A stretch of 27,711 nt of DNA from a virus: the IMG/VR virus record IMGVR_UViG_3300025369_000049, positions 1 through 27,711 of that record, one strand, 5' to 3'. The translations under genes and the position numbers were made by a program. Below the pieces are notes generated by a model. It was not told the DNA's origin, made no database searches, and worked only from the letters and a program-made list of their open reading frames with translations. Below are positions 10,761 through 27,710 of the stretch, in pieces. The first letter of the stretch is position 1; the number at the start of each line of letters is the position of its first letter.

Positions 10761-10802
10761 CTTGGACACGGAGACCGTCAAACAAGACGGTCTCCGTCAA
10801 GC
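10760..10802. terminator. Strong stem-loop between convergent arms
   Basis: A perfect 12-bp stem (10768-10779 with 10786-10797; ACGGAGACCGTC paired to GACGGTCTCCGT) closes a 6-base loop AAACAA. A further 5-bp stem (GCTTG 10760-10764 with CAAGC 10798-10802) extends it, with a 3-base bulge GAC on the left side. It sits in the tail-to-tail gap where a bidirectional terminator is expected, but neither side has a T-tract, so a processing site or protein-bound cruciform is also possible. Confidence 0.55.
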
Positions 10803-10844: not shown

Positions 10845-10858
10845 TAAGAACGGTCTTA
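10845..10858. terminator. Short hairpin at the giant gene stop
   Basis: TAAGA-ACGG-TCTTA forms a 5-bp stem with a tetraloop, and its right end is the stop codon of the minus-strand giant gene. It is weak and has no clear T-tract, so it is only a possible 3' end structure. Confidence 0.25.
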
Positions 10859-13800
10859 TTGGCGTACTCTTTTATCTACCACTTCGGTAAATCTTTGAGC
10901 ATACGCGTTTTCTTGTTTGCGTATTTCCTCAATCCTAGCATCCTTATCTGCTTGAGACAGTTGGGGATTAGCCAGTATGGCTCTTTCTCTACTGAATAGT
11001 GTTCCCATATTTTTCTGGAACGAACCTGCGGCTTGACCGGCCGCAATTAAGTTAGCGTAGTTTTGTCTGAACGATTCGGCTTCAGCACGCTGACCCTTTT
11101 TGAGTTTGTCCTTGTATGTAGCTTGGGCTTTCTCAACATCATCCATGCGCTCATACGCGCGTTCAATCAAATAGCGTCCTTCACGTTGGAATAAACCACC
11201 GATGAACGGAACATCACTTGCAGCCATTGAAGCTTTCTCGCCTTCAGCACTTGATGCCAGTACTGGGTCAATCATGTGCAACGCTGCCAATCCCATACTT
11301 CCTGTGTATCCTCGAATAAAATGCTCAAGCATAATGGGCGATACGCCCGCTTGGCCTGTCAACTGGCCCACCATCTTTGCCGCTTCTGTCGTGTTTGCAC
11401 GATAGCGCTCTGTTGCCATTAGCTTTTTCTCACGCTCGGTTTCAATCGGGCCTGTGGCCGTCTCTCCGTAATACGCCTCAAGAAATGGTTTTGGCGCCGC
11501 AGGGATCAAGCTCGGTACTGCGTTTTGCCACACAAGTTTACCCATGCCTTTGGCGGCTTCGGTAGCCGTCATGTCTTTATGAGCAGAGTCAATGATCGCT
11601 TCAGGCAACGCTTTGAATAGGATACCCACCTCATAAGGGATTGGTATCTTCAAAGGATCTTTAACAAACGGCAAGTGAATAAAGAAGTTGTTGTATCGTT
11701 CTTCCGGACGTGCTTTGCGGTAGTCATCATCGTCTTGCATCATCAAAGCGTAGGCCATACTAACGCCCATCAACATCATGCTACGCGCAACCAACTTGCG
11801 TCTGATTTCCATTTGCTCAGCGAACGGCATTTGATTTGTCAATGACCTATACAAAACATCCAAGCCTTGGACTTGAGAGTTAAAGAACGGAATCAAAGTG
11901 TTGAGCATTTGCATACTGGGCGACAGGCCACGACGGCTCAAGTTTTGAGACTCAAACGCTCTGAACTGCGCTTGGGCTTTGGTCAATCCCTTCTTCAATC
12001 CATCGTTATATATTGTGGCTCTGGTCGCTGTGTCTGCTTGCAAAGCAAACTTGTCCAAGTGCCCCAACATCTTCTGCCATGAACTCTTGCCGGTCGCAAT
12101 GTCCTGCAAGAACTTGGTCATGTCTTTCTCATCCCCACTAAAAATATTACTGCTGACCGCCAAACCGCGCATCAAATCTTGCTCAGCTTGACTTTGTCCT
12201 GTGTACATCTTAGAGAGTTCTTTCAGAGCGTTGACCATTGGCACGCCATCGGTTCCTGACAGAATGAACGAGTTGACTGGATCGCGCAACAACTGGCGCA
12301 CGCCATATGCAGGGAAGCGTGTCACAAACTTTCTAACCCATTGTGATGGAATGCCCATTGCTTTAACAAGCGCAGGAATTGTGGTCTTGATACCTTCCAT
12401 GCCCTTGACAATTAAGTGTGCAGGAATTCCAAATGTGTCAGAGTCTATGGTAGCAAACGCATCTTTACCGCCGATTTTGTAATGTACAGTATCAGCGTTG
12501 GCAAGCCCGGGGCCTGTACCCATTCTGCTTACAAAGCCTGCTTTGTTAAGTCCGTTGGCAGTCTCAAGCGTAGCCTTGTTGTGCAAGGCCATGCGAGTCA
12601 GCATGAACGTGTTTTGCACGGCGCTCGTCATCAAAGGCAAAATGTGTGTGTTGTCGCCAACCATAGCTTTTAAGTCGGGGTTGTCTTTGATGTTACCGAT
12701 CGTTATGGCTTTCTCACCGGCGGTAAACAACTGCACTTTGCCGTCTTGAATACGGTAGAACGGAATGTAAGGCAAACGCTTTAGACGATCCGCTTCGTCT
12801 TTGCTCATGAAGTCACATTGAACAGCAAAGTCCAGTTGCCCGTCGTTGTATTCTTTGTACGCTTTTCTAAGCGCCATAAAATGTGTTTTAGCTTCTGCGT
12901 TGCGATTGATTGCCCTAGTATCGGCATCGAACTCGGCCTTGACTCCTGCGGGATTATCCGCATTCAAACGACTCCAACCGTTTGTCAAAGCATTAGCACG
13001 CTCACCGGCAATAAGCACAGTCGCCATACGTTCGGCTTCTTCATTAGAAACACCCAGCGCTTTGGACATGTTACCTAAATGCTCACTTACGTCTACCAAA
13101 TTAGCGCCGTCTTGTGATTCATAGCGGTATTCTTTGCCTTGTGGGGTATTCTCCACAACCACTTTCATGGGGCCGTGCAAAATAAATTGACCTGCGGCAG
13201 TAGAAACTTGATCCCCCATGCGCATAAAGTATTGGGTTTGGAACGCTTCCAGGCTTGTCATTTTACCTGCGCCTTCAGCGGCAACCACAGCGGAATCAAC
13301 TGCAGCCAACTTATCTACAAGCTGAACTCTACCGCCAAGGCCAAAGAAATTGCCTTTAAAATTTTCCCACTTGCCGGGAGCCGATCCAACCAAGGCCGAT
13401 TTGTAAGCGGGTGCTGCCCCAACTTTTTCAGCTTCAATATTCCTTGACTGCATGAATATGCTACGAATAAGCTCTTCTGCTCTGGGAAGCATGTTTTCTG
13501 AAAGCGGCGTCTTTCTAAAGAAGTCAAGCACAGCCTTAAAGAAACGCTCAAGCATATTACCGCGATACCAAGGGCGGTTATCCATCATGTCACGCAAGTC
13601 TTTGTTTGCCATGACTTCAGACACAAACTCCTTGATGTTCTCCATACCGTACTGACCCTTGAACTTGGGATCAGTTTCTAAGTTACGGAACATGGCCTCA
13701 ATCTCACGACGCGCTGTGCGTTGCGCAGGAGTCAGTTCTTTCTCAGGCATTGTAAGCACACGCATGGTTGCGGCGTGGGTAGCTTCGTGCACAACGTCTT

Positions 13801-16800
13801 CAACAGTAAAGCCTTGAGGCGTAAAGTATGCCGTGTTAGTTGTGGGATCGTAAAGCGCAGGAACGCTTTTACCCTTGTGAATAATCTCAGGGACAATCTC
13901 AACTTTGGTGCGCATCAAAAACTGGCGCACAGCATCTGCGTGTTGGCCCAAAAATCCTTTATCAGAATCCGCAATGTGCTCTAACGCCCCAATCAAACTT
14001 CTATCAATCAAAGATTTAATGGCTTCATCAGGCAATACCGTACCGGGAGCTTCACGGGCGGCAGCAGCAAAAAAATCGTCATCTGCATCTTCAATTGCTT
14101 TGTTCAAACGATTAAAAGGACTGGCGTTCTCAGTAAACTCAATGTCAGACTCAACGGCATCTTCCGCAGTCTCGGTGACTTTTTTGGCGTAGGTTTCCGC
14201 CTTGACGTTTTTATAGCGCTCTTCTGCGCGGTCTTCTTTTTCTATGGCGCGTTCTAAATCGTCCCTTGCAAGTTCTTTTTCTGCTTTGGTCTTGGCATTT
14301 TCGAGAGTTTTTTCAGAGCGGGTTACTTCAAGGTGTGCTTCTCTCAGGCGTTCTCTGGCAGCAATAAGCTCCATGCTGCCGCCTTCTTTCATAATACGAG
14401 CACCTTCTTCCAAACGCCCTTGAACTTGCTCTGGTGTCAAACCTGCAACAGCGTTGTCGTATTGTTTTTGCAAAGTCTCTTTGCGTTTAGTTCCGTCTTC
14501 GGCAGCATCCAACTTTTCTTTTGTTACATGCAAACTAACCGCATTGGCTTTTTCGGGCGACAAATCTGAGGCACGAAGTTTAATAACGCCGGCTTGTTTA
14601 GGTCTGTTGCCTTTGCCAATCGGTGTGCGGCTTTCGGCCGTACCAGATAGCATAGCGCTTGGGGCACGAGCGGCTGTGCGAACAACTGGACCTTCGCGTC
14701 TGTTGGGTAAGCGCTCCCCGGGTTCGACTTCAGCTTGCTCACTAGGTTCTTTTTCCTCAGTAATTTTTGTGACTTTTTTCTCTGCCACAGGTAACACTTC
14801 TTGGAGTTCACGCTCATAGCGTTTAACTTCTAGTGTGTGTTTGTTAACGGCTTTTGCATCTCCGCGATCAATAGCATCTTTGAGTTGCGTCTGCGCCATG
14901 CCCAGCATTTTCTTGGCATTGTTTTGAACAGCTTGCGCCAAGACGCCAGTTGTGTCCAACTCAACACGAGTACCTTCAAGACCTAAGCCTTCTCTTGCGC
15001 GTTGCGCAACATCTTTTGGAACGCCTTCATACGGAGCTTTGGCTTTTTTAAGCGCTTCTTCTTGTTTGGCTTCTTTAACAAGCTGTTTGCCTTTGAGTTT
15101 GTCTTCTGCTTCTTTTTGTTTTTCAAGCGCAGCACTTAAACGTTTTTGAGCTTCTGTTTGTACAGCGTTGGCTTTTTCAATAGCATCTGCTGCCGCTTTT
15201 AATTCAGGATCATTTTGTTGCGCAACTTGTTCTGCGTCTCTTGCAGCAACAGCTTCTTTATACGCAGCTTGAATTTTTTGAGACGAAGCGTATTGAAACG
15301 CCAAAAAATCTCTGCGTGCAATTGCATATTTAACAAGCGCTGCTGTATGTGCTTTGTCTGCCGACGCAGCTTTATTTATTAAGTCTTGTACATGACTTTC
15401 TAAAACAGCGGGGCTGTACCCGCTTTTTAACATTTCTTCGTATTCAGCTTTAAATGCATCAAGTTTTTTAGCAATTGCGGCAACTTGCGCGTCCATGTTG
15501 GATATGTTGGCTAGCATTTGTGAAGCCAAACGCCCTGCTTCTTGGGGATCAACAGGAGTTTCAAAACGCTCTAATATAGCGTTTGCATTGTTAAAATCTT
15601 GCTGAGGAAGATGCGTATTTATGAAGTCTTGTAAAGCAAACGCTTCATTTAGAACATCTACGTTGTTTTGTTCAGGGGCAACAGAAACTCTTTTTGACAC
15701 GCTGTTAAAATGTTCTTGAGCTGCTTTTAATTCTGTGGCCGCATTTTCATTGGGCAGTTGGTTTCTAAGTTTTCTTATTGTGTCAGTTACAATAAAAATG
15801 CTATGTCTATACTTGCTTAATTCTTCTGGCGGACCAAGCACGGGTTTAGCAACCAAATCCGCTAACATTTTTTCAGCAGCGTGTAATTCTGCGGTTCTTT
15901 CAGCAACGATTTTTGGGTCTCGTATGAAAGCGTTGGATACCTCTACTTCCGCTTGCGCAAGTTCTAAACGTTCTTTGGCTTCTTTAAGCTCTTTTCTTTG
16001 TGATGGCTGAAGTTCTAAAAACAACTTGCTTACTGCGTCATTCAAAGATTGCAAACGTTTTTTAGCTGCTACCAGTTTGGGTCCTTGCTCCTCGTATGCT
16101 TGAGTAATTTCTTCTTTGGCTGTAGCCACCAAATCATTGGCTTTATTAACAACCGCTGTGGATTTAGCCAACTCACTTGGCTTTTCTGTTTTTACTCGAA
16201 CCGCATTGGGTATCCCCCAACTACTAGCTTGTTTTGGCGATGTACGAGCTTGACCTTTACGAGCGTGCTCTGGAACATTTCTGTAATCTTTGCCAGCAAT
16301 GTATGCAACAGTTCTGTACCCTTTGCCAGCAATGAGTTGTTGCGCCGCGCGAGTGCCGGGTACTACCCTATTGATGGCGTCTTGCTGTTCCTCATACATG
16401 CGTTGCCTAGACTCAAGCTCCGCAACTTTGGCTTTGGCTTTTTCAATTTGGTCACGTATTTTTTCTTCTTGTTTAACAAGATTTTTTTCACGTGCGTCCC
16501 GTGCAGCCTTAATATCTTGCTCAATTTTTGTTTCTACATTTCTTGAGTGAAATACTTTGTTGTAAGCAATGTCTCCAGAAAAGCCGCTTTTGCGCTTGCT
16601 AATCAAATAGTTTAATGTTTTAGTACGTTCAATTTCTTCTTTGCTTGGCGTACTTGCAGCAGCACGAATTTTTTCTAGCTGTGTTTGCAGCTCAATTTGT
16701 TTGGTTCTGGCCGCGTCAAGTGTTTCTTTTGGCACGGGCTTCTTGAGTTCTGTGTATTGCTTTAAGCCAAAACCGGGCAGCATTTTCTGTTCTTCTGTGC

Positions 16801-19800
16801 GAACAGTGGGTTGCTTTTCAGCTTCGCGTTCGTCTGCAAAGGCTTGGAACTTCTCAGATGTTTTGCCTGTGGCATTGCGGTGCTCTTGCTCGAGCTGCTC
16901 AATTTGTTTACCGATTTGTTGGTAACGGCCTGTTGGTTCTTTTGAGTACTTGTCAAGCAGCGCTTGTAGTTGAGGCGTGTTTGCTTCTTGGCTGCGACGA
17001 CGCATGCCTTCTTTAATATCTTCGCGCTCTTTGTACAGCCTATCCAAATTGTCTTGAATGCGCTTAACTTCAGCAGCAGATTTACCATATGCGCCAGATA
17101 AACCAAACAGATCAGGTTGTTCTTTAGGAGCCTCTTCAACAGGGCGTTGCTCACGCTCCGCCATTGTGTTGTATTTTGAGCGGGCGTCTTCTATTTCCTG
17201 TTGAATATATGCTCGCCTTTCTTGGAGCATAGTTAATTCTGCTACTTTAGCAGGGTTTGTTGGCTTGCCTGCTTTTTGTATTAGAGCATTTAAATCATCA
17301 AGTATTTTTTCATTGGTATCAATTGAGTCTAATAAATTTTGTGCTTCTACTATGGGTAAATAGCGCCCCGGCCCTTGAACACGTTTGCTAACGTTTTGCA
17401 ATTCTTCCAAACGGCCTTGAAGATATTGATACTCTTTAATGAGTGATGGGTATTCAGGGTGTTCAATACCACGCATCATTTCTGCGTGCATGGTACGAAT
17501 ACGCCCTTTTAATTCTTTAATTCGGTAACTAAAGTTTCGTATTTTTTCAAACTTTTTTCTACGTTCTTTAGTCGTTTTGCCGGGACTAATATTTTCGCCA
17601 CTGATTTTTTCAGTGGGTTGATTTTGCCCCAATAGATCAGGCGCTTCTTTTTCTGCTTCGGTTCTATTTACACTGGTTATATCAGGAATGGCGCGTTTAA
17701 TAGCTTGTGTGTGAGAAACACCATTGGCTATTAAATTTTTAATACCTATGCCAGAACCAATAGGGCGACCCCCCACAACAAAAAAACCTTCAGTTTCACC
17801 CGTTATGTTGTTACGTTCTATACGAATTTGTTGAGGTTCTTCTTCGTCTGCAGTTTTAACATTGTATGTATAACGTGTAACATTTTGTGATATTGTCCCG
17901 TTATCTTGAGTAACTACTGTTTGTATGCCGCCATCAGATTGTACTCTGCGTTCTACATTGGGTTTGTTTTTAGCTACGGGCTTTTCACCCAAAGCCGTTG
18001 GCAAATGTTGGTTTAACAGTTCCTCAACACGCTGATCTAATAACTCATAGTTACTGGGTTCTTTTTCAAAGTCTTCTTGTGCGTACTTTGGTTCTTCTTT
18101 TAAAGATTGCCAATCTTGGGTAATCTTTGGTGGCATAACAATTTTGCCAGTCGCTGTTTTGGTCGGCTGTTGTCTAAACTGGGCAAGTAATGTTTTAGCG
18201 TCATCAAGTTCTTTTTTGGCTATGTCCGCTTTGCGTTGTTCAAGAGCGTTTGCAAAAAGCCCCGGTTGTTTATTTGCATCAACAATCTTCTGTAGTCGTG
18301 AGACTTCATTTTCTAAATGGTTGCCAAAATCAACAACAGTTTGACCATAGGTTGCACCTTTAACGGGCGAATACCTTTTTATTATTGGACCATAATCAAG
18401 TCCCAGTTTTTGGCGTCTTTCAATTGCTTCTTTTCGCAGCCTCTCAATTTCTTCTGTAAATTTAAGACGTTCTGCATCTTGCGCTGCTTCCAAAGCAGGG
18501 CGTGTATTGTCTTCGCCAAAAAGAGATGGTCTCTTTTTAAGTTCTTGAATCCTGTCAGATGCTTTTTTAATTGCATCCATATCACCAAGCTGTTGTGCTT
18601 TTTCCAGTTTGGTGCGCTGTCTTTTTAATTCAAGCTCAGTATCTTCAAAGTTTAAATCTAAAGGGCTTATTAAATGCGCATTTGGTTCAGCTTGCGCAAC
18701 TTGAGGACGAAGCTTTTCTAAATTGGCTTGTGCTTGAGTTAAAGCAGCGTGGTCATTTGCATGCTTTGCAATCTCGTTTTCGTCTGCGGCTTCTGCGGCA
18801 TTTTGCCTAGCCAAATACATACGGCGCCCAATATGGGCTTGCAAGTCATTAAACTCTTGTGCAGTTGGAGTTTCTGCAGGTGTGGGTGTTTCTTGCGCGC
18901 GAGCCGCTTCAATCAAGTCTTGGTCAGGCGTGCCCGCAAATAATTCACCCTGAGCACCGGGCTGTTGCATTGCCTTTTCATAGGCGGCTTGTTTTTCAGC
19001 GGCAGCTTTTTCACGATCTTGCCGTTCTTTTTCAGCTTTAACTTTTGCTTGGACCGCGCGGTATTCGTTGATTAAATCTTGATTGTCTGGGTCTTTGAGC
19101 AAATCGCTAAGAGCTGCCTTGGCTTCTTTTTTATCTGCGGCCCCAACCAAATCACCACTTTCAACTTTGACTTTTGACTTGGCTAGCAAGTCTTGGTATG
19201 GGCCGTTAAACGCTTCCCAACGCTTTGATAAATCTGTAATGTACTCGGGCGTTTGTTTAAAAGCCTCTAAGTCTTTGGCTTGTTGTGCTTCAGCGGCTTG
19301 TTGGTCTGCCAATTGTTTGGCTTTGTCTGCGCGATCTGCGGCTGCAGCTTGCGACTTTGCTTGTCCACGTTCTACAAAACGGCCGGGCACCCCGAGGGTG
19401 CCGCCAAGAACAGCACCACCAAGGAAGTTGTCAAAGTATTCTTTTTGTGCATCAGGATCAGTAAGGGATAGCCCTGCTTGCAAACGCTCAAGCACTTGTT
19501 GACCGGCTTCGGTCAAACCTTCAGCGCCTGCAACTTTACCTGTATTAAGAGCGTAGTCCCCAAGCGTTTTCTTTAGGCCTTGGGATGCAATGGCTCTGGC
19601 TTCAGCGTCTGAAATTTTGTGCCCAGCTTCAGCAAAAATATTGCGAATTCCGGGGATCATTCTCAAGCCAAATACATCCAAAGCAGCTTGAGGTATGGCT
19701 GCTCCAAAGGCACTACCGAGGTTGGTGTCGGCCAAGCTCTTACCTTCTTCCATTTGGCGAGAAAGATTAGAACCTGTAAACTGTGCTGTTGATGCTGCTC

Positions 19801-20308
19801 CAGCTAATCCTGCGGCTGTGGCTTCGCCCACAGTACCCAACCCCAAACCTTCTAGTGCACCTCCAACAAATGGTGCAGCGGCAGCGGCTTCAGGTAAAGC
19901 CAAAGCACCTAACCCTGCGGCAAGCGGGGCAATTGTGTATGGCGCTGAACCGCCAAGCAACTCACCAAATTTTGTACCAAAATCTTCAGTCCAACCTTTT
20001 TCTGTTGGCTTAAATGTTTTCTTTTGGTATTCAGCTTCTTCTTTGCCAATTTGTTCTGCACGTTCAGGCGCAATGATGCCAGTCTTACCTGCAAGGTTTG
20101 CTAGATCTGCTTTGAGTTGAGAAGCACTAGATTTAAAAGCAGGTACAAATCCTGATTGTGCGGTGTCTACCGGGGCTGTTTCCTGTTTGGGCGTTATGCC
20201 AAACGCATCTGGATACAATTGTTGAGCGCGGTTCCACACTTCTTTGGGGTCTTCACCCGGTTTTAGTGCGATTCCCGATCCGTCAGGCAGATGCAGATAC
20301 TGTGGCAT
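10856..20308 (-). CDS. Giant polyvalent virion protein with HEATH peptidase motif
   Basis: A 3150-residue protein, by far the largest here. Residues 1-45 (MPQYLHLPDGSGIALKPGED, then WNRAQQLYPDAF) match an N-terminal module typical of ejected phage proteins. Gly/Ala hydrophobic stretches follow at about 115-225 and 293-310. Residues about 315-2080 are mostly charged, Lys/Glu/Ala/Gln-rich helix and coiled coil. HEATH (2174-2178), with Glu2227 or Glu2231 in KEFVSE as third ligand, marks a gluzincin-like peptidase. From about 2650 the sequence (for example RFPAYGVRQLLRDPVNSF and ARPEERYNNFFIHLPF) resembles LPD38 of large polyvalent proteins. Its place last after nozzle and internal proteins parallels T7 gp16, but I see no transglycosylase. 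It likely enters the cell with the DNA. No Shine-Dalgarno precedes ATG 20308. Confidence 0.85.
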   Translation of the reverse strand: MPQYLHLPDGSGIALKPGEDPKEVWNRAQQLYPDAFGITPKQETAPVDTAQSGFVPAFKSSASQLKADLANLAGKTGIIAPERAEQIGKEEAEYQKKTFKPTEKGWTEDFGTKFGELLGGSAPYTIAPLAAGLGALALPEAAAAAPFVGGALEGLGLGTVGEATAAGLAGAASTAQFTGSNLSRQMEEGKSLADTNLGSAFGAAIPQAALDVFGLRMIPGIRNIFAEAGHKISDAEARAIASQGLKKTLGDYALNTGKVAGAEGLTEAGQQVLERLQAGLSLTDPDAQKEYFDNFLGGAVLGGTLGVPGRFVERGQAKSQAAAADRADKAKQLADQQAAEAQQAKDLEAFKQTPEYITDLSKRWEAFNGPYQDLLAKSKVKVESGDLVGAADKKEAKAALSDLLKDPDNQDLINEYRAVQAKVKAEKERQDREKAAAEKQAAYEKAMQQPGAQGELFAGTPDQDLIEAARAQETPTPAETPTAQEFNDLQAHIGRRMYLARQNAAEAADENEIAKHANDHAALTQAQANLEKLRPQVAQAEPNAHLISPLDLNFEDTELELKRQRTKLEKAQQLGDMDAIKKASDRIQELKKRPSLFGEDNTRPALEAAQDAERLKFTEEIERLRKEAIERRQKLGLDYGPIIKRYSPVKGATYGQTVVDFGNHLENEVSRLQKIVDANKQPGLFANALEQRKADIAKKELDDAKTLLAQFRQQPTKTATGKIVMPPKITQDWQSLKEEPKYAQEDFEKEPSNYELLDQRVEELLNQHLPTALGEKPVAKNKPNVERRVQSDGGIQTVVTQDNGTISQNVTRYTYNVKTADEEEPQQIRIERNNITGETEGFFVVGGRPIGSGIGIKNLIANGVSHTQAIKRAIPDITSVNRTEAEKEAPDLLGQNQPTEKISGENISPGKTTKERRKKFEKIRNFSYRIKELKGRIRTMHAEMMRGIEHPEYPSLIKEYQYLQGRLEELQNVSKRVQGPGRYLPIVEAQNLLDSIDTNEKILDDLNALIQKAGKPTNPAKVAELTMLQERRAYIQQEIEDARSKYNTMAEREQRPVEEAPKEQPDLFGLSGAYGKSAAEVKRIQDNLDRLYKEREDIKEGMRRRSQEANTPQLQALLDKYSKEPTGRYQQIGKQIEQLEQEHRNATGKTSEKFQAFADEREAEKQPTVRTEEQKMLPGFGLKQYTELKKPVPKETLDAARTKQIELQTQLEKIRAAASTPSKEEIERTKTLNYLISKRKSGFSGDIAYNKVFHSRNVETKIEQDIKAARDAREKNLVKQEEKIRDQIEKAKAKVAELESRQRMYEEQQDAINRVVPGTRAAQQLIAGKGYRTVAYIAGKDYRNVPEHARKGQARTSPKQASSWGIPNAVRVKTEKPSELAKSTAVVNKANDLVATAKEEITQAYEEQGPKLVAAKKRLQSLNDAVSKLFLELQPSQRKELKEAKERLELAQAEVEVSNAFIRDPKIVAERTAELHAAEKMLADLVAKPVLGPPEELSKYRHSIFIVTDTIRKLRNQLPNENAATELKAAQEHFNSVSKRVSVAPEQNNVDVLNEAFALQDFINTHLPQQDFNNANAILERFETPVDPQEAGRLASQMLANISNMDAQVAAIAKKLDAFKAEYEEMLKSGYSPAVLESHVQDLINKAASADKAHTAALVKYAIARRDFLAFQYASSQKIQAAYKEAVAARDAEQVAQQNDPELKAAADAIEKANAVQTEAQKRLSAALEKQKEAEDKLKGKQLVKEAKQEEALKKAKAPYEGVPKDVAQRAREGLGLEGTRVELDTTGVLAQAVQNNAKKMLGMAQTQLKDAIDRGDAKAVNKHTLEVKRYERELQEVLPVAEKKVTKITEEKEPSEQAEVEPGERLPNRREGPVVRTAARAPSAMLSGTAESRTPIGKGNRPKQAGVIKLRASDLSPEKANAVSLHVTKEKLDAAEDGTKRKETLQKQYDNAVAGLTPEQVQGRLEEGARIMKEGGSMELIAARERLREAHLEVTRSEKTLENAKTKAEKELARDDLERAIEKEDRAEERYKNVKAETYAKKVTETAEDAVESDIEFTENASPFNRLNKAIEDADDDFFAAAAREAPGTVLPDEAIKSLIDRSLIGALEHIADSDKGFLGQHADAVRQFLMRTKVEIVPEIIHKGKSVPALYDPTTNTAYFTPQGFTVEDVVHEATHAATMRVLTMPEKELTPAQRTARREIEAMFRNLETDPKFKGQYGMENIKEFVSEVMANKDLRDMMDNRPWYRGNMLERFFKAVLDFFRKTPLSENMLPRAEELIRSIFMQSRNIEAEKVGAAPAYKSALVGSAPGKWENFKGNFFGLGGRVQLVDKLAAVDSAVVAAEGAGKMTSLEAFQTQYFMRMGDQVSTAAGQFILHGPMKVVVENTPQGKEYRYESQDGANLVDVSEHLGNMSKALGVSNEEAERMATVLIAGERANALTNGWSRLNADNPAGVKAEFDADTRAINRNAEAKTHFMALRKAYKEYNDGQLDFAVQCDFMSKDEADRLKRLPYIPFYRIQDGKVQLFTAGEKAITIGNIKDNPDLKAMVGDNTHILPLMTSAVQNTFMLTRMALHNKATLETANGLNKAGFVSRMGTGPGLANADTVHYKIGGKDAFATIDSDTFGIPAHLIVKGMEGIKTTIPALVKAMGIPSQWVRKFVTRFPAYGVRQLLRDPVNSFILSGTDGVPMVNALKELSKMYTGQSQAEQDLMRGLAVSSNIFSGDEKDMTKFLQDIATGKSSWQKMLGHLDKFALQADTATRATIYNDGLKKGLTKAQAQFRAFESQNLSRRGLSPSMQMLNTLIPFFNSQVQGLDVLYRSLTNQMPFAEQMEIRRKLVARSMMLMGVSMAYALMMQDDDDYRKARPEERYNNFFIHLPFVKDPLKIPIPYEVGILFKALPEAIIDSAHKDMTATEAAKGMGKLVWQNAVPSLIPAAPKPFLEAYYGETATGPIETEREKKLMATERYRANTTEAAKMVGQLTGQAGVSPIMLEHFIRGYTGSMGLAALHMIDPVLASSAEGEKASMAASDVPFIGGLFQREGRYLIERAYERMDDVEKAQATYKDKLKKGQRAEAESFRQNYANLIAAGQAAGSFQKNMGTLFSRERAILANPQLSQADKDARIEEIRKQENAYAQRFTEVVDKRVRQ
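16279..16334. repeat. 33-base near-tandem repeat inside the giant gene
   Basis: Two 23-base units (16279-16301 and 16312-16334), both TTCTGTA..CTTTGCCAGCAATG in form and differing at two bases, are offset by 33 bases. In the protein they give IAGKGYRTV and IAGKDYRNV, 11 residues apart, a recent in-frame duplication or a short repeat module. Confidence 0.65.
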
Positions 20309-20348: not shown

Positions 20349-22145
20349 TTATTGGCCGCGAAGTACAGCGGGGGGGTTATTTGACAACGCGTTGTCGGGT
20401 CCTTGCATTGTTTTATAAGCCAGCATGGCTTTATTAAGATCCGCAAAAAACGCTTGGGGGTCTTGCATTGGAACTGGTTGTCCAGTAATTGGATCCAATT
20501 TGCCTGCCAGTGCTTTTTTCTGGTCAAGATATGCTTGCATTGGGTTTAATTTGCCAGCTTGGATTTCTGTCATTTTTCGCAAGCCGTCTTCAATATCGCC
20601 ATTTTTGCCTAAGAATTGCGCAGATCTAATTGCTTCAGGCGGCAAGTTAGCCAACGCAGCTTTAAAATTAAGTTCCGCTTGTGTGTTTGCAGTTGCGTTT
20701 TGGGCACTGAACATTGTGCGTTTGTTGGCATTAACATCTTGTTGGCTTTGGCTGTAAGCACCGGCTGCAATACCGGCGCCTGCTTGGGCAAAACTGTTTT
20801 GTGCATTAAACGCGTGTTCGTTAAGATTTGACATGGCGTCAAACGCTTTGCTGTTCATTGCCATAGCCGTGTCTTGGTCGTGTACCATCTGGGCCTTGTT
20901 CATGTCATCAATATGCGAATACATGTTACGGCGTTCTTTAGCGGCGGCATCAATTTCTTTAAGGCCTTCTTTATATGCTTTGAGTCCTTCTACACCACCT
21001 TTGCCGATGTTTGCAAAAGCATATGGAGAAGTTCCTTGCATCATGGCTAAACCTGCTTCAGCCAAGCTCATGCCTTTAAGATTGCCAAGTTTGGTGACTT
21101 CTTCTGCTTTTTCTTTATCAAGGTCTTTTTTCAGTTCTTCCCCAAATTTAGGACGCGCGCGCAACATTGCTTCTTGGGCGGTCGTTAAATCATTCAAACG
21201 CCCAACTGTATCGTCGTGCAGTTGTGCTATGCGAGAATCCATTTGAGTTGGATCCAAGAATGTATTAGCCGTGGCTTTGGCTTCAGCAGGAGACAGAGCT
21301 TTTGTGTTTAAACCACCGGGCATTGCCAACTTGGGTGCTTGGATATTGGGCGACCAAGGTGTTGGAGGGGCAGGAGGATTACCGGCTCCAGTACTTGTGT
21401 TTCCTGCGTCTGCATCCGCATTTCCTGTTAAAGATGTATTCAACTGTGTAGGTGTTGGTTGTTCTTGGCCCAACAACTGTGCAATACCGGGAGCTCCAGC
21501 CGCCGCGGTATAGTCTGCAGAACCAATGCGAGAAAACGCTGTTTGTGCTTCTTCTGGACTTTTAAAAACTTGCCCCATCAATGGTTTGTATTTTGGATCC
21601 ATTGGCATGCGGGGGTTGTATGGAAAATCGTAGTAATACTGAGCACCGCCCGGAGCGTGTGGATTTGTAGAAACTAACTGCGGATCAAACGCTCCATTGT
21701 AACGATGCACATCTCCAGTGATTCCACCGCCTGCCATTTTGGTCAAGTTCTGTGCAGGCAAAGCGCCAATACCTGTGTCTTCAGGTAAGCCTTGAGCCAC
21801 TTGTGGTGCGATCTGTGCGGGTGAACCGGGGCCTTGCATGGGCATACCGTTGGGCATATTTGGCCCTGCACCAGCAGGCGCCATCCCTTGTACTGGTATT
21901 GGTCTTGGGGGGGCCATTGAAGCAATGTCTTGATTTGCAACGGTGTTGCTTGGCATTTGCGCAAGAGGTGCACTCATTTTGTTGACTTGCGTTGCCAATG
22001 CTACCATGTTGGTATCATTTGGGTTTTGTGCAAGGTGCTGTTGCACGTATTGTTGTAACGTGCCTTTGGCTTTTTCTGCCGCTAAAACGGCCATTGTGTT
22101 CTGCAAATTTGCAGGTGTGTAAGGAGTGATTGTTGGGCTGTACAT
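20349..22145 (-). CDS. Internal/ejected virion protein, 598 residues
   Basis: A low-complexity phage structural protein. Residues about 60-120 are rich in Pro, Met, Gly and Ala. Residues 124-140 (GIGALPAQNLTKMAGGG) match a short motif widespread in virion proteins of podovirus-like phages. A charged helical region at about 300-400 (LHDDTVGRLNDLTTAQEAML, then FGEELKKDLDKEKAEEVTKL) contains MSLAEAGLAMMQGTSPYAFANIGKG-type sequence that I associate with proteins encoded next to giant polyvalent proteins. The C-terminal part is Ala/Gln/Asn-rich helix. By order it parallels T7 gp15. The start ATG 22145 has AGGAG, formed partly by the upstream stop, a few bases before it, so it is coupled to the gene before it. 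Confidence 0.72.
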   Translation of the reverse strand: MYSPTITPYTPANLQNTMAVLAAEKAKGTLQQYVQQHLAQNPNDTNMVALATQVNKMSAPLAQMPSNTVANQDIASMAPPRPIPVQGMAPAGAGPNMPNGMPMQGPGSPAQIAPQVAQGLPEDTGIGALPAQNLTKMAGGGITGDVHRYNGAFDPQLVSTNPHAPGGAQYYYDFPYNPRMPMDPKYKPLMGQVFKSPEEAQTAFSRIGSADYTAAAGAPGIAQLLGQEQPTPTQLNTSLTGNADADAGNTSTGAGNPPAPPTPWSPNIQAPKLAMPGGLNTKALSPAEAKATANTFLDPTQMDSRIAQLHDDTVGRLNDLTTAQEAMLRARPKFGEELKKDLDKEKAEEVTKLGNLKGMSLAEAGLAMMQGTSPYAFANIGKGGVEGLKAYKEGLKEIDAAAKERRNMYSHIDDMNKAQMVHDQDTAMAMNSKAFDAMSNLNEHAFNAQNSFAQAGAGIAAGAYSQSQQDVNANKRTMFSAQNATANTQAELNFKAALANLPPEAIRSAQFLGKNGDIEDGLRKMTEIQAGKLNPMQAYLDQKKALAGKLDPITGQPVPMQDPQAFFADLNKAMLAYKTMQGPDNALSNNPPAVLRGQ

Positions 22146-22153
22146 GTATGCTC

Positions 22154-23158
22154 CTATGCCAATTTAGACACGGCTAAATCAACTAAACCTCTGGACTTTT
22201 TAATTTCTCCGCCTTTAGCATGACTTTGTAAAGAAGCCAAACCAGCTGCAGTCAATCCAGCCCCTGCAACTTGTGAAAGAACGCTAGGAGGGGCTTGATA
22301 CACCGACGCAGACTGTTGAGTCATTGGCAAACCACGGATCAAGTTGGACATGAAGTTCAGCTGTTGATAAGGGTAGTTCTGTGCGTTTAAGAAATTCTGA
22401 TATTGCGTATTGAGAACATTTTGCTCTTGTTGCTGTTGCTGTCCACCCAGTTGATTTTGTAAACCAATAATCCCAAGGTTTTGGTTATACTGGTTGTTAC
22501 CCAGTGTACCCATTGTGTTGGCAGCAGACAAAGCGGTGTTAAGGCCTTGCATACCCAAGTTAGCACCAAACTGTTGCTGTTGAGCATTCAGTTGATTTTG
22601 GGTGTTATATTGGTTTTGAGCGTTATTGAACGCGGTATTGTAGGCGTTGCCAATCAAATTTTGATTAGCCAATTGGTTATTTAAGTTGGTAGCGGCATTT
22701 TGAACACCAAACCTAGAGCCACCAAACGCACCTGCTTGAGTTGCTTGCGCATTTTGTGTTTGTTGTGCAGCGCCTTGCAATTGCTGTTGGATGGCTAATT
22801 GTGGGGCAAGCGACGCATTCAAATAAGGATTCATCAAACTTTGCGCATCGGCAGTTGAAAAGTTTGAAGGGTTGAATGTGTATTGAGTATTTAATCCACC
22901 AAGCCCCGCTTGACCCGCAAGGGCAGTTCCTTGGCTGAGTTGGGGAGAGGTTTGCATCAACGATGCGTTGTTATATGCTGACTGCTGTAAGGGCGTAAAC
23001 TGCGCCACCTGATCGCCCATATACTGTTGATATGGGTTGGTGTTAATGTCAGTTAAATCCGCCGCATTGCTTAGTAATTGCTGGCCGTATGGAGCAATTT
23101 CAGGCGCAAACCCCGTTTGATATTCGGTTACTGCGGTTGGTGTTGCGGTCGTAGTCAT
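22154..23158 (-). CDS. Gln/Asn-rich virion protein, 334 residues
   Basis: A protein dominated by Gln, Asn, Ala and Gly. Landmarks: PYGQQLLSNAADL (23-35), MNPYLNASLAPQL (109-121), QAGAFGGSRFGVQ (141-153), a Gln run at 239-244, YPYQQLNFMSNLIRGLP (262-278), a hydrophobic Ala/Gly segment (about 294-312), and a C-terminal KGGEIKKSRGLVDLA. The NPYL, AGAFGGSR and YPYQQL..L..G.P series is a pattern I know from structural proteins of podovirus-like phages, usually next to nozzle and internal proteins; the exact role is not known to me. By position it parallels T7 gp14. ATG 23158 has AAGGAA upstream, overlapping the previous stop. Confidence 0.72.
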   Translation of the reverse strand: MTTTATPTAVTEYQTGFAPEIAPYGQQLLSNAADLTDINTNPYQQYMGDQVAQFTPLQQSAYNNASLMQTSPQLSQGTALAGQAGLGGLNTQYTFNPSNFSTADAQSLMNPYLNASLAPQLAIQQQLQGAAQQTQNAQATQAGAFGGSRFGVQNAATNLNNQLANQNLIGNAYNTAFNNAQNQYNTQNQLNAQQQQFGANLGMQGLNTALSAANTMGTLGNNQYNQNLGIIGLQNQLGGQQQQQEQNVLNTQYQNFLNAQNYPYQQLNFMSNLIRGLPMTQQSASVYQAPPSVLSQVAGAGLTAAGLASLQSHAKGGEIKKSRGLVDLAVSKLA

Positions 23159-23167
23159 GATATTTCC

Positions 23168-25831
23168 TTATACGGGAAGGTATTTTGATGCGTTAGTATT
23201 TGTCGCAACGGCATCTCTACCGGTTGTTTTGCGACGGGCATTTTGAATGCGGTCCATCATTTTGTATAGTTGACGAGCGCCTGCTTCAGTTGATCCATTG
23301 CCTAATTCAGAAACGATCCGAGCAGGAACCACAAACTCACCATCAGCAAGGCGAGCAGGCTCAGGGTCGTGAGCGCCAATAGTAGCAGGGATTGAATCCG
23401 AGACGCCATCACCCGGACCCCGAAGCAAACGTCCACCATCTGAGTACCCTCCTAAATGACCAACAGACATTCCGCCAGCTGCAAGACCCATCAATCCTCC
23501 GGTAGCGCCAGATGTTGTGTCACCAGATGAACTGGAATTGCTAGCACCACTTGCGGTACTACCAACCAAAGTTCCGTCGGCATTGTATTTTTTACCATCC
23601 GAGCCAGTAAAAGTGCCATCCCCATTGGGGTACGCCATTACACCGCCGGGCAAAGACTTGTATCCCAAAACAGCTAAAGCGTTGGGATTGGTCAAGCCTG
23701 TTTGTGGAACACCCAAATAATCTTTGGTTGCACTGAACGCGGGGTCATAATTAGGATTAGTTATGTATGTGTGCGTTGTTGGATCGTATATCTGAGGCGT
23801 ATTGACCATGTATTGCGGGCTTAATTTTTGACCCATCAATTGTGCGTAAGGAACCGACACCTGCCCTGTTGGCGTAGTTGGCAACGGGTTCCAAGGCGAC
23901 TTGCCCATCAAGTAGTCATATGCAGCTTTAGAGCCACCGGTTAGGGTGTTGTTGGCCGCATTGAACTCATCCATATTTTTGTATGTTGGGATGGTGTAGC
24001 CTGTACTACCACCGCCAGCTGTATAAGCGTTGTTTACTTCGCTCATGCCTGAGAAACCGCCATAAGGGCGTCCGGGGACATCAGGTGTCACAGTTGTTGT
24101 ACCGTTGGGGTTGTACGTCAAATCGCCCGGATTATTTATATTTCCGTATGGGTTTTTTGTCCCTGCGGGTGCGTTGGTCTGTGGGTTGGTTGGAAGAATT
24201 GTAGATGTTTGGGGTCCGCCACCGCCACCGCCACCGCCACCTCCCGGTGTGTTAATAACATTGGTAATTGTTTTTGTTTGCGGTACTGTTGAAAACTTAC
24301 CTTTAGGATCAACTTGGTTGTATAAGGCCTGAATAGCATCTGGCGTCATGCCCAATGCATTTGCCATTGCAGTAGGATTAACATTCCAGTTATCCATTTC
24401 ATTGGCAATTTGGGTGTTTGCTGTGATGCTATTTGATGTGCCAGAAGGAACGCCAGCAGCCATTTGAGCGGCGTAAACAGCGTTTTTAATATCTGTTGTT
24501 GCGCCTTTTGTTCCCAGTTGAGCATCAAAAGAAGATACGTTTGGTTGAGTTGGACTTGCTAAACTTTGCGCTGAATATGGGTTAATTCCAGAAGCAAGGA
24601 ACTTCTGCACAGCAGCAGGGTCAGCATTTGTTGCTTGCTCGGCAGCTGCTAAAGCTGCGGGGTTACTTGTATCAATACCTTGTTGTTGAATATATTGCGC
24701 CATTTGCTGGTCGGAATAATTTGTATAAGCGGGCGCTAAAGCGGCAACACCGGCAGGAGCTCCAGCTCCAACAGCGGGCCCAGCTCCAACATTTGCGGCT
24801 TCTTGCGCTGCTATTTGAGCGCCTTGTCCTCCCGGTTGGAAAAAAGAAGCACTAATTTGTGGAGCCGCTGGAGCACTTTGCGAAGCCAAAGCGGCTTGTA
24901 CTTGAGCATCTGATACACCGTACTGTTGTTCAGCGGCTGTAAGAGCATCTCCAGATAAGTTATTGCTGGTAACGTAGTTTGCAATCTGTTCGTTTGTATA
25001 CGCAGGTGCAGCAGCCGCAACATCGCCACCATCGTCGTAATGATGCACGCCACCACCTTGAGCCAAAGCAACAAGACCGCCAGTAGCGGCAGCGGGAGCC
25101 ATTCCTTGATGTGTATATCCACCCATAGGCGAATAGCTGCTGTACCTAATGAACTGCGTGTTAGGTGTATTAGGCATATTTAGCTTTTGCGGTTGAGCGG
25201 CCGCCTTTAAAAGACCAATACCGCCCGCTCCGATTGCGGCTTGCTCGTACCAAGGCAAACCCGTGAATTTATCAAATAAACTTTTACCAGTACTTGAGGC
25301 TCCAGCTGTACTAGCTGCGCCTGGCATTGGGGTTGTTGGTTGAACTGTACCTGGTAGGCTTGCTGCATTTGCTTGTGCGCCAGTCATCACTTGCGTAGGC
25401 GCTTCGGTCATAGAAGGAGTGGGAGCTTTACCAACAGGAGCTTCTTCAATCTCCTGATAATTACCGGCGCTTGAAGCACCAGCCGCAACATTTGAACTTC
25501 CAATTCCAGAACTGTAATTTCCCATCCCCAAGCCTTCGCCAAGACTTGCGCCTCCATACCCTGCCATACCCGCCATCAAACCTTGAGCCAAATTTCCTGA
25601 AGCAAGACCTGCAATTCCACCAGTCACAAGCGCTGCGTTTCCTGCCGCTCCTAATCCAGCATCAAATAACCCGCCACTGCCAACAAGCTCACCAGCTCCA
25701 CCAGTAAAATAATCCAAAGCCGCAGCTGCCGCCATATCTACCAATGGATTTTTGGTGGCGTTGGCAATGCCTTTTCCAAGGTCATGAATGCCGCCGGATA
25801 TATTTGCTATTGGGTTTGAAAAGAAGCTCAT
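23168..25831 (-). CDS. Ala/Gly-rich virion protein with helical repeats, 887 residues
   Basis: A large structural protein. Residues about 30-105 are Gly/Ala-rich and hydrophobic with zipper-like spacing, suggesting membrane contact. Residues 251-269 (GGLVALAQGGGVHHYDDGG) carry a GG motif. Three degenerate helical repeats follow at about 277-316 (YTNEQIANYV...), 368-413 (YTNYSDQQMAQYI...) and 470-506. A ten-Gly linker (530-539) leads to an Asn/Gly/Thr-rich part. Near the C-terminus are RLLRGPGDGVSDSIPA and LADGEFVVPARIVSELGNGS, a strongly recognisable phage virion motif. ATG 25831 has GGAG upstream. By order it could be an ejected or tail-core protein; the exact role is unassigned. Confidence 0.75.
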   Translation of the reverse strand: MSFFSNPIANISGGIHDLGKGIANATKNPLVDMAAAAALDYFTGGAGELVGSGGLFDAGLGAAGNAALVTGGIAGLASGNLAQGLMAGMAGYGGASLGEGLGMGNYSSGIGSSNVAAGASSAGNYQEIEEAPVGKAPTPSMTEAPTQVMTGAQANAASLPGTVQPTTPMPGAASTAGASSTGKSLFDKFTGLPWYEQAAIGAGGIGLLKAAAQPQKLNMPNTPNTQFIRYSSYSPMGGYTHQGMAPAAATGGLVALAQGGGVHHYDDGGDVAAAAPAYTNEQIANYVTSNNLSGDALTAAEQQYGVSDAQVQAALASQSAPAAPQISASFFQPGGQGAQIAAQEAANVGAGPAVGAGAPAGVAALAPAYTNYSDQQMAQYIQQQGIDTSNPAALAAAEQATNADPAAVQKFLASGINPYSAQSLASPTQPNVSSFDAQLGTKGATTDIKNAVYAAQMAAGVPSGTSNSITANTQIANEMDNWNVNPTAMANALGMTPDAIQALYNQVDPKGKFSTVPQTKTITNVINTPGGGGGGGGGGPQTSTILPTNPQTNAPAGTKNPYGNINNPGDLTYNPNGTTTVTPDVPGRPYGGFSGMSEVNNAYTAGGGSTGYTIPTYKNMDEFNAANNTLTGGSKAAYDYLMGKSPWNPLPTTPTGQVSVPYAQLMGQKLSPQYMVNTPQIYDPTTHTYITNPNYDPAFSATKDYLGVPQTGLTNPNALAVLGYKSLPGGVMAYPNGDGTFTGSDGKKYNADGTLVGSTASGASNSSSSGDTTSGATGGLMGLAAGGMSVGHLGGYSDGGRLLRGPGDGVSDSIPATIGAHDPEPARLADGEFVVPARIVSELGNGSTEAGARQLYKMMDRIQNARRKTTGRDAVATNTNASKYLPV
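24216..24245. repeat. Hexanucleotide repeat encoding a Gly-10 linker
   Basis: Three perfect ACCGCC units (24221-24238), flanked by CCGCC and ACCTCC, encode ten consecutive glycines on the minus strand in the 887-residue virion protein. Such a run can change length by slippage in steps of two residues. Confidence 0.75.
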
Positions 25832-26195: not shown

Positions 26196-27710
26196 TCACC
26201 TTCTGCCGTCTGGTCTAGCATCAAATCGAGGAGCACCCAACTGCCAAGTCGTACCCAACTGGTTTGACTCCATCTTGAATACGAACTGTCGGCCTCTAAT
26301 GCGGGTATATACGTAGCCCGTGAATGTTTCAGGATTGCCATTGATGTTGACGCTGTACACTGAATTGGGCACAGATTGGCTAATACCAGAACCCGAATTG
26401 ATAAATGACGATATGGTCATTGTGGTGGTCGGACTAGAGGCAGTTGAGTTCTCAAATGTTAAATCCGGTAAGACCTTCGTGATAAATGCGAAGTGATCCC
26501 CAGTAGGGTCGGAGATGTCAAATTCAGAAGACGAAATGTAAGCATCAATAGGCGCAGGTGTGCCAGTCTCGTTGTCGTCTAAGCCGCTTTCTTGATTGAC
26601 CAAATAGCCGTTGTATGTGGCGCCAATAGGATTGGATTGGAGCGTGGTGTCTAGCCATGCAGTCCTGCCCATCGTGCCGTAATACCAAGTGTGTTCGATG
26701 TAGTTGTACACAACATAACTGTTAATTTGCGTGCCAGAGCCAGACACATAGAACCACCAGACTTCGTTAAAGCCCTCTACCGTACTGCAATAAACTTGTT
26801 CGTTTTGAACAGTGTTAATGTTTTGGAAAACATACCGACGTAAGTCGCAATTGAGCGTTTGTAGACGTCCATCGTACATATAGAACTTGTCAATACCCAT
26901 CCAATAGACCACGCCAGACGCCAGTGCGGCGGCATTTGGTCCAATGATGGAGATGTTCTCAGAGAGCAGTTGAACGCCCCAAACATAAGGAGGCCCAAGG
27001 TATTGCAATGAATAGATGGCCTGATCGGTAAGAACAACAATCTCTTGGCGGGTTTGAAGCGCCGTAACAATTTTTGAGCCGTGAGACAAGCGCACATCAC
27101 CCGCTTGGTTGGTAATGTCAGGATACCAGACCAAAGGATTTTGCTGGTCAGACCAGCGGATCAGCATAGGGTCGATCGTACTTGTGCCAAGCGCATTTGT
27201 ACCAAACACCAGCACAAAATTAGATGCGTCAGATACCTGTAAGTAGTTTTGGAACAGAGGCACATCGCCCAATAGCGATATTGATTGCGTGCCGGATTGC
27301 GTTCCAGTTGTGTTGATTGCGGCTCCGCCTTGAGTCAACGAGAGGTTGAAAGTCGTACCAGATACGTTGATAACGTAGTAAGTGGTATTCGTTGATAGGC
27401 CACTTGGCAAAGCGCCGGTTGTTCCAAGCTGGATTGAACTGTTATTTGGTAGATTGACCGATGATGTAATAACTGCGGGAGAGGCAATTGTAATGGTAAC
27501 AGTACCACCTGTGCTACTTAATAAAACGCCCGGATTGGTAAGTGTTGGGGCTGTCCAATAATAAATACCCCCGCCAGCAGGACCAAACAAAAGATTTTGG
27601 CCAAAGTTATAGGCATTCCAAATTTGCAAATTGTTTTTGGTTGATCCGCCAGTACCCCAAGGACCTGAACCCCAATAACTTGCTCCCCATCCTGTGAATG
27701 GAACTTGGTA
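26196..27710 (-). CDS. Tail-nozzle-like protein, 5' end cut by window edge
   Basis: The frame is open to the right edge; 504 residues are visible and the start is outside. A TTG at 27629 could be read as a start, but sequence before it (FTGWGASYWGSGPWGTGGS) is protein-like and continuous. The region of RWSDQQNPLVWYP, GDVRLSHGSKIVTALQTRQE and LTDQAIYSLQYLGPPYVWG, then NAAALASGVVYWMGIDKFYMYDG, repeats Trp/Tyr- and Gly-rich beta blades as in the beta-propeller nozzles of podovirus tails (T7 gp12 or P22 gp10 by analogy). A Thr/Gly-rich module at about 27276-27518 appears inserted near the N-terminus. The C-terminus (YVYTRIRGRQFVFKMES) also fits this family. Assignment is by motif memory, not by alignment. 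Confidence 0.6.
   Translation of the reverse strand, partial: YQVPFTGWGASYWGSGPWGTGGSTKNNLQIWNAYNFGQNLLFGPAGGGIYYWTAPTLTNPGVLLSSTGGTVTITIASPAVITSSVNLPNNSSIQLGTTGALPSGLSTNTTYYVINVSGTTFNLSLTQGGAAINTTGTQSGTQSISLLGDVPLFQNYLQVSDASNFVLVFGTNALGTSTIDPMLIRWSDQQNPLVWYPDITNQAGDVRLSHGSKIVTALQTRQEIVVLTDQAIYSLQYLGPPYVWGVQLLSENISIIGPNAAALASGVVYWMGIDKFYMYDGRLQTLNCDLRRYVFQNINTVQNEQVYCSTVEGFNEVWWFYVSGSGTQINSYVVYNYIEHTWYYGTMGRTAWLDTTLQSNPIGATYNGYLVNQESGLDDNETGTPAPIDAYISSSEFDISDPTGDHFAFITKVLPDLTFENSTASSPTTTMTISSFINSGSGISQSVPNSVYSVNINGNPETFTGYVYTRIRGRQFVFKMESNQLGTTWQLGAPRFDARPDGRR

Follow-up and report, generated by a model that had tools for sequence, protein, structure and literature searches.

A predicted zinc peptidase domain connects a giant phage LPD38 protein with PhiM1 TEP and the N4 virion RNA polymerase

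The window, which is the whole 27711-base IMG/VR record analysed here, carries plus-strand replication genes up to position 10733 and a minus-strand virion cluster. The giant gene described in an earlier note on this DNA, P0001, was recovered as a single minus-strand ORF of 3150 residues, running from an ATG at 20308 to a stop at 10856. The start, MPQY.., is kept among its relatives in the alignment. P0001 sits among virion genes (its neighbors match PHROG 4287 and PHROG 3287) and is the last gene of the cluster; in cultured relatives the gene holds the same place, beside a DNA-ejection PHROG. The genes and the hairpin of this part of the window are:

10786..10798, minus strand: terminator-like hairpin 3′ of P0001, between the convergent late and replication blocks (consensus match only)
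10856..20308, minus strand: giant gene P0001, 3150 aa, last gene of the virion cluster
20349..22145, minus strand: 598-aa gene upstream of P0001, no annotated family
22154..23158, minus strand: 334-aa upstream gene, PHROG 4287 ‘DNA ejection protein’, E 2.1e-13
23168..25831, minus strand: 887-aa upstream gene of the same cluster, no family assigned
26196..27710, minus strand: virion structural protein gene, PHROG 3287, E 6.9e-44, running off the window

The 598-aa gene is a candidate second ejection protein by its position alone; tblastn of this neighbor against phages gave no match. Comparison of the 598-, 334-, and 887-aa proteins with N4 gp51-53, T7 gp14/15, and PhiM1 EP3/OEP returned nothing significant, and the genes upstream of P0001 are not detectably related to those upstream of the N4 polymerase gene. 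As a hint of the host, searches of genome contigs matched three distant MAG contigs only.

P0001 belongs to a family of giant proteins encoded in phage contigs of ~60 kb. A query with its C-terminal part identified 35 loci in viral contigs, to which a peptidase query added one more, and the complete family ORFs collected (n=71) span 1253-3852 aa with a median of 2887. Achromobacter phage CF418P1 encodes a 2684-aa relative labeled ‘putative portal’, which is probably a misannotation. When relatives are aligned to P0001, the N- and C-terminal parts are conserved and the middle poorly so. The protein can be divided as follows:

19259..20308, minus strand: N-terminal module, residues 1-350, a short conserved head domain followed by Gly/Ala-rich segments (alignment of 21 relatives)
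19379..19987, minus strand: Gly/Ala-rich segments, residues 108-310 (composition)
14039..19258, minus strand: variable charged middle, residues 351-2090, fastest-evolving, of different length in different relatives
13439..14014, minus strand: zincin-like metallopeptidase domain, residues 2099-2290 (hhalign and AlphaFold)
13775..13789, minus strand: HEATH, residues 2174-2178, predicted zinc ligands H2174 and H2178, predicted general base E2175
13616..13633, minus strand: KEFVSE, residues 2226-2231, with E2227 the predicted third zinc ligand, aligning with E449 of the PhiM1 tetrameric ejection protein (TEP)
13346..13444, minus strand: linker from the zincin to the C-terminal module, residues about 2289-2321, pLDDT <50
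10859..13402, minus strand: C-terminal module, residues 2303-3150, shared throughout the family and slowest to evolve, PHROG 18222
11201..11731, minus strand: LPD38 domain, residues 2860-3036, Pfam PF18857, E 1.7e-31

In a dN/dS-type comparison with three relatives (L002, L004, and L006), in which dS is saturated, rates fall from the middle through the zincin to the C-terminal module; the zincin has a dN well below dS, and the lowest dN is that of the C-terminal module.

The N-terminal module noticed earlier is borne out as a stretch of ~350 residues common to the family, with no relative among PDB sequences. Its Gly/Ala segments had been called hydrophobic. Their richness in Gly and Ala holds from about 108 to 310, whereas the hydrophobicity is not confirmed: the highest Kyte-Doolittle value of any 19-mer in P0001 is 1.52, and within these segments 1.49 (residues 126-144), below the 1.6 usually taken to mark a membrane helix. 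Gly-zipper Pfam models score weakly in two relatives (L037 and L027). The middle had been described as about 1800 residues of charged helix. The charge is evident, with 25-41% charged residues and little Gly or Pro from ~300 to 2100, a composition compatible with helix. No Pfam domain was detected in residues 351-2090 of P0001. An FtsK_gamma DNA-binding domain occurs in six of 30 scanned middles of the family (L027, L029, L037, and others).

The peptidase region is where the sequence is most informative. HExxH occurs once in P0001, as HEATH, against 0.047 expected from composition. The earlier note had paired it with the downstream KEFVSE glutamate; both motifs are present, and they are no chance occurrence: the 41 aligned relatives share HE..H, the EF pair, and the next E without exception. 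An AlphaFold model of residues 2080-3060 consists of helices and a small sheet, with HEATH in one helix (model positions 90-107) and KEF in another (146-155). The pLDDT of the zincin core is mostly 81-91, dropping to 71-73 near residues 2250-2270 (model ~171-190) and at the end (model >200). HEATH is thus predicted to lie in a confident helix within a zincin layout and not in an unstructured coil. Alignment and model agree on an arrangement of MPTase type, in which the HExxH helix comes after a three-stranded sheet and the Glu is provided by the next helix. One MPTase clade is characterized by an Asp three residues after HExxH and a His ending strand 2 (PMC5512222); the clade-type Asp is missing in P0001, where A-A-T follows HEATH.

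Several searches gave nothing for the domain. Pfam models did not match it, a tblastn search of phages with the 194-aa peptidase stretch found nothing, and when both models were run through Foldseek, no PDB entry matched at E <= 0.001. A 77-column Foldseek match to selecase, a small metallopeptidase, had an E of 3.6 and was set aside.

Profile comparisons, by contrast with these nulls, tie the domain to two phage proteins. A PDB profile search with the P0001 zincin retrieved PhiM1 TEP (8vb2) at E 9e-4, followed by the internal virion protein 9sfn at E 0.17. With hhalign, the domain aligns to PhiM1 TEP at E 5.7e-15, to a profile of eleven TEP relatives at E 1.3e-13, and to N4 C1, represented by fifteen Schitoviridae C-termini, at E 8e-10 (probability 96.5); the TEP and N4 zincins align with each other at E 6e-11. 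These ties persist when the HExxH and KEFVSE columns are masked (E 3.4e-8 for TEP and 1.3e-5 for N4), while controls with reversed alignments and unrelated window alignments gave E >0.1. Zincin homology to T7 gp16, which stands for the same Autographiviridae ejection protein type as PhiM1 gp48, was not found. Together, the profile homology to both proteins, the HEATH helix, and the invariant ligands support the assignment of this domain as a predicted zinc peptidase, in line with the earlier suggestion.

PhiM1 TEP (gp48) carries its homologous zincin as HEAAH at 385-389 plus Glu449 (PMC11440229) and, like P0001, continues from the zincin into a large C-terminal part. At 1263 aa it is much shorter, however, and the two C-terminal parts are not detectably related. 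Its residues 268-528 were described as endolysin/exotransglycosidase-like on the basis of BLASTP and DALI, and the terms peptidase, protease, and HExxH do not occur in the main text of that paper (PMC11440229). The N4 virion RNA polymerase (vRNAP, gp50) is, like P0001, a giant chain (about 3500 aa) encoded by the last gene of a late cluster, with the same order of an N-terminal module, a middle, an HExxH-containing C1, and a large helical C2 (PMC12633501). It differs in having a T7-like RNA polymerase domain; Pfam detects none in P0001, even at E values as high as 1. The HExxH of C1 was remarked upon in the N4 preprint (Bellis et al., PMC12633501), the only match for an ejectosome zincin among open-access papers. 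Some Schitoviridae vRNAP C-termini (L154, L183, and L184) seem to carry two zincin-like copies, one of them degenerate; N4 has kept HExxH in the first copy, D301 and pYD6-A in the second.

Beyond the zincin no resemblance reaches significance. The N-terminal module of P0001 is not significantly similar to either protein, and hhalign gave no significant score for its C-terminal module against TEP or N4 C2 (E 0.1 for the best alignment to N4 C2). Only the zincin therefore links P0001 to these two proteins.

The C-terminal module is one that P0001 has in common with other LPD38 proteins. The LPD38-like part recognized earlier scores 110.2 bits against PF18857, for which the curated Pfam cut-off is 27. 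Against BFVD, the combined model drew numerous LPD matches in Foldseek, the strongest at E 2.9e-40 and one of them, to Ralstonia phage Alix, at E 4.7e-16. Of the 97 zincin ORFs that the collected contigs contain, 92 have this module too, a co-occurrence to be read with caution as these contigs were gathered with seeds from the P0001 family. Some relatives have the same C-terminal module without an HExTH zincin, from which it follows that the peptidase is a separable cargo and is not needed for packaging. In cultured phages, methylases and other domains take the place of the zincin. In L021, L025, and L033, the position immediately before the C-terminal module is taken by a second, distantly related zincin of HExxxH spacing instead of the HExTH domain, and ADP-ribosyltransferase-like sequences occupy the swap region in L019, L022, and L037, with a Pfam ART-PolyVal match in L037.

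Polyvalent proteins with zincins were already known in phages (Iyer et al., 2017, PMC5512222), as the earlier note had said for proteins of this kind, and P0001 is a new member of this group. Like the LPD38/MPTase polyvalent proteins, it combines LPD38 and an HExxH zincin with a downstream Glu in a giant chain encoded beside virion genes (PMC5512222). Its relatives carry ART, ddrB-ParB, methylase, and RelA/SpoT domains. Unlike the multi-enzyme members, P0001 itself has one recognizable enzymatic domain, the zincin, by Pfam and profiles. The Bcep22-like giant proteins gp69/gp75 also have LPD38 near the C-terminus and are encoded by the last gene of the virion module. They are present in virions; JC1 gp69, of 4515 aa, was found in CsCl-purified virions by 51 unique peptides (PMC9144972). 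In contrast to P0001, JC1 gp69 is listed with transglycosylase, DarB/helicase-type, and LPD3 domains (PMC9144972).

Given its gene position, the DNA-ejection PHROG beside it, its homology to ejection proteins, and the presence of JC1 gp69 in virions, P0001 is best interpreted as an ejected virion protein, and the earlier view of it as such stands at that strength. We consider it reasonably probable that, among the ejection proteins of a podovirus-like phage, P0001 is the largest, an LPD38 polyvalent protein whose zincin cuts a target and not its own chain. It would be housed inside the capsid and be delivered before the DNA or together with it. The C-terminal module may anchor or package the chain by analogy with N4, where the vRNAP C-terminus is reportedly required for encapsidation and the N-terminus for injection (the primary data being cited as unpublished). 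The chain would then be threaded through the tail, and the Gly/Ala N-terminus may meet the inner membrane. In the zincin, H2174, H2178, and E2227 would hold the zinc and E2175 would serve as the base, and the substrate would be cut in the infected cell or envelope.

Other roles for the zincin have been weighed against this one. It might be a maturation protease, acting during assembly on its own chain or on a neighboring virion protein. This is the role proposed for P1 DdrB, whose C-terminal domain is an MPTase and which is processed before packaging (PMC5512222). The low-confidence linker directly after the P0001 zincin would suit such a cut; however, no conserved cleavage site was identified in P0001. 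Self-processing, which the earlier note had allowed for, is further weakened because the homologous N4 vRNAP is packaged unprocessed and ejected, and was purified at full length with no degradation seen (PMC5512222, PMC12633501), and we regard it as unlikely despite the DdrB precedent. A structural or regulatory zincin that cleaves nothing, retained for the sake of the fold, of zinc binding, or of contacts with neighbors, appears equally improbable. What Bellis et al. report for N4 is autoinhibition of the RNAP by the whole CTD, C1 and C2 together, and not protease activity (PMC12633501), and the apparent degenerate second copy in Schitoviridae vRNAPs fits a noncatalytic role, but all 41 members retain the catalytic E2175, a degree of conservation beyond what a structural zinc site calls for.

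A peptidoglycan-opening role, with the zincin as an endopeptidase that loosens the wall to let the DNA channel through, has in its favor that Pfam recognizes no wall hydrolase among the cluster genes of the window and a Pfam SLT lytic transglycosylase in only one of 16 family-bearing records of about 54-66 kb, a count that rests on one hydrolase family and on records that may be incomplete. The N4 authors likewise see no wall hydrolase among the N4 ejection proteins (PMC12633501), and the endolysin-like label of the TEP region points the same way. PhiM1 OEP, however, has a separate lysozyme-like domain (PMC11440229), so that the zincin is no replacement there, and no similarity of the zincin to known wall peptidases was found. 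This role is similarly hard to favor. It is very improbable that the charged middle acts as a rod fixing a trans-periplasmic length, an idea of the earlier note that draws on its ~1800 charge-rich, Gly/Pro-poor residues. Among 40 relatives in which the zincin adjoins the C-terminal module, this least conserved part spans 330-1764 residues, and a segment so variable in length is hardly a periplasmic ruler.

Target cleavage by an ejected zincin thus being the preferred reading for P0001, a broader and more tentative possibility is that the LPD38 family, PhiM1-type TEP, and N4 vRNAP share an active zincin, an entry-stage ejectosome peptidase acting on a host or cell-wall substrate. The region shared by these proteins is here pinned to the zincin and extended to LPD38 proteins, and structures already available (PDB 8vb2 and the N4 CTD map) make the peptidase link open to testing. 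Should the zincin prove active, phage DNA entry would include an enzymatic step that went unnoticed in proteins of known structure.
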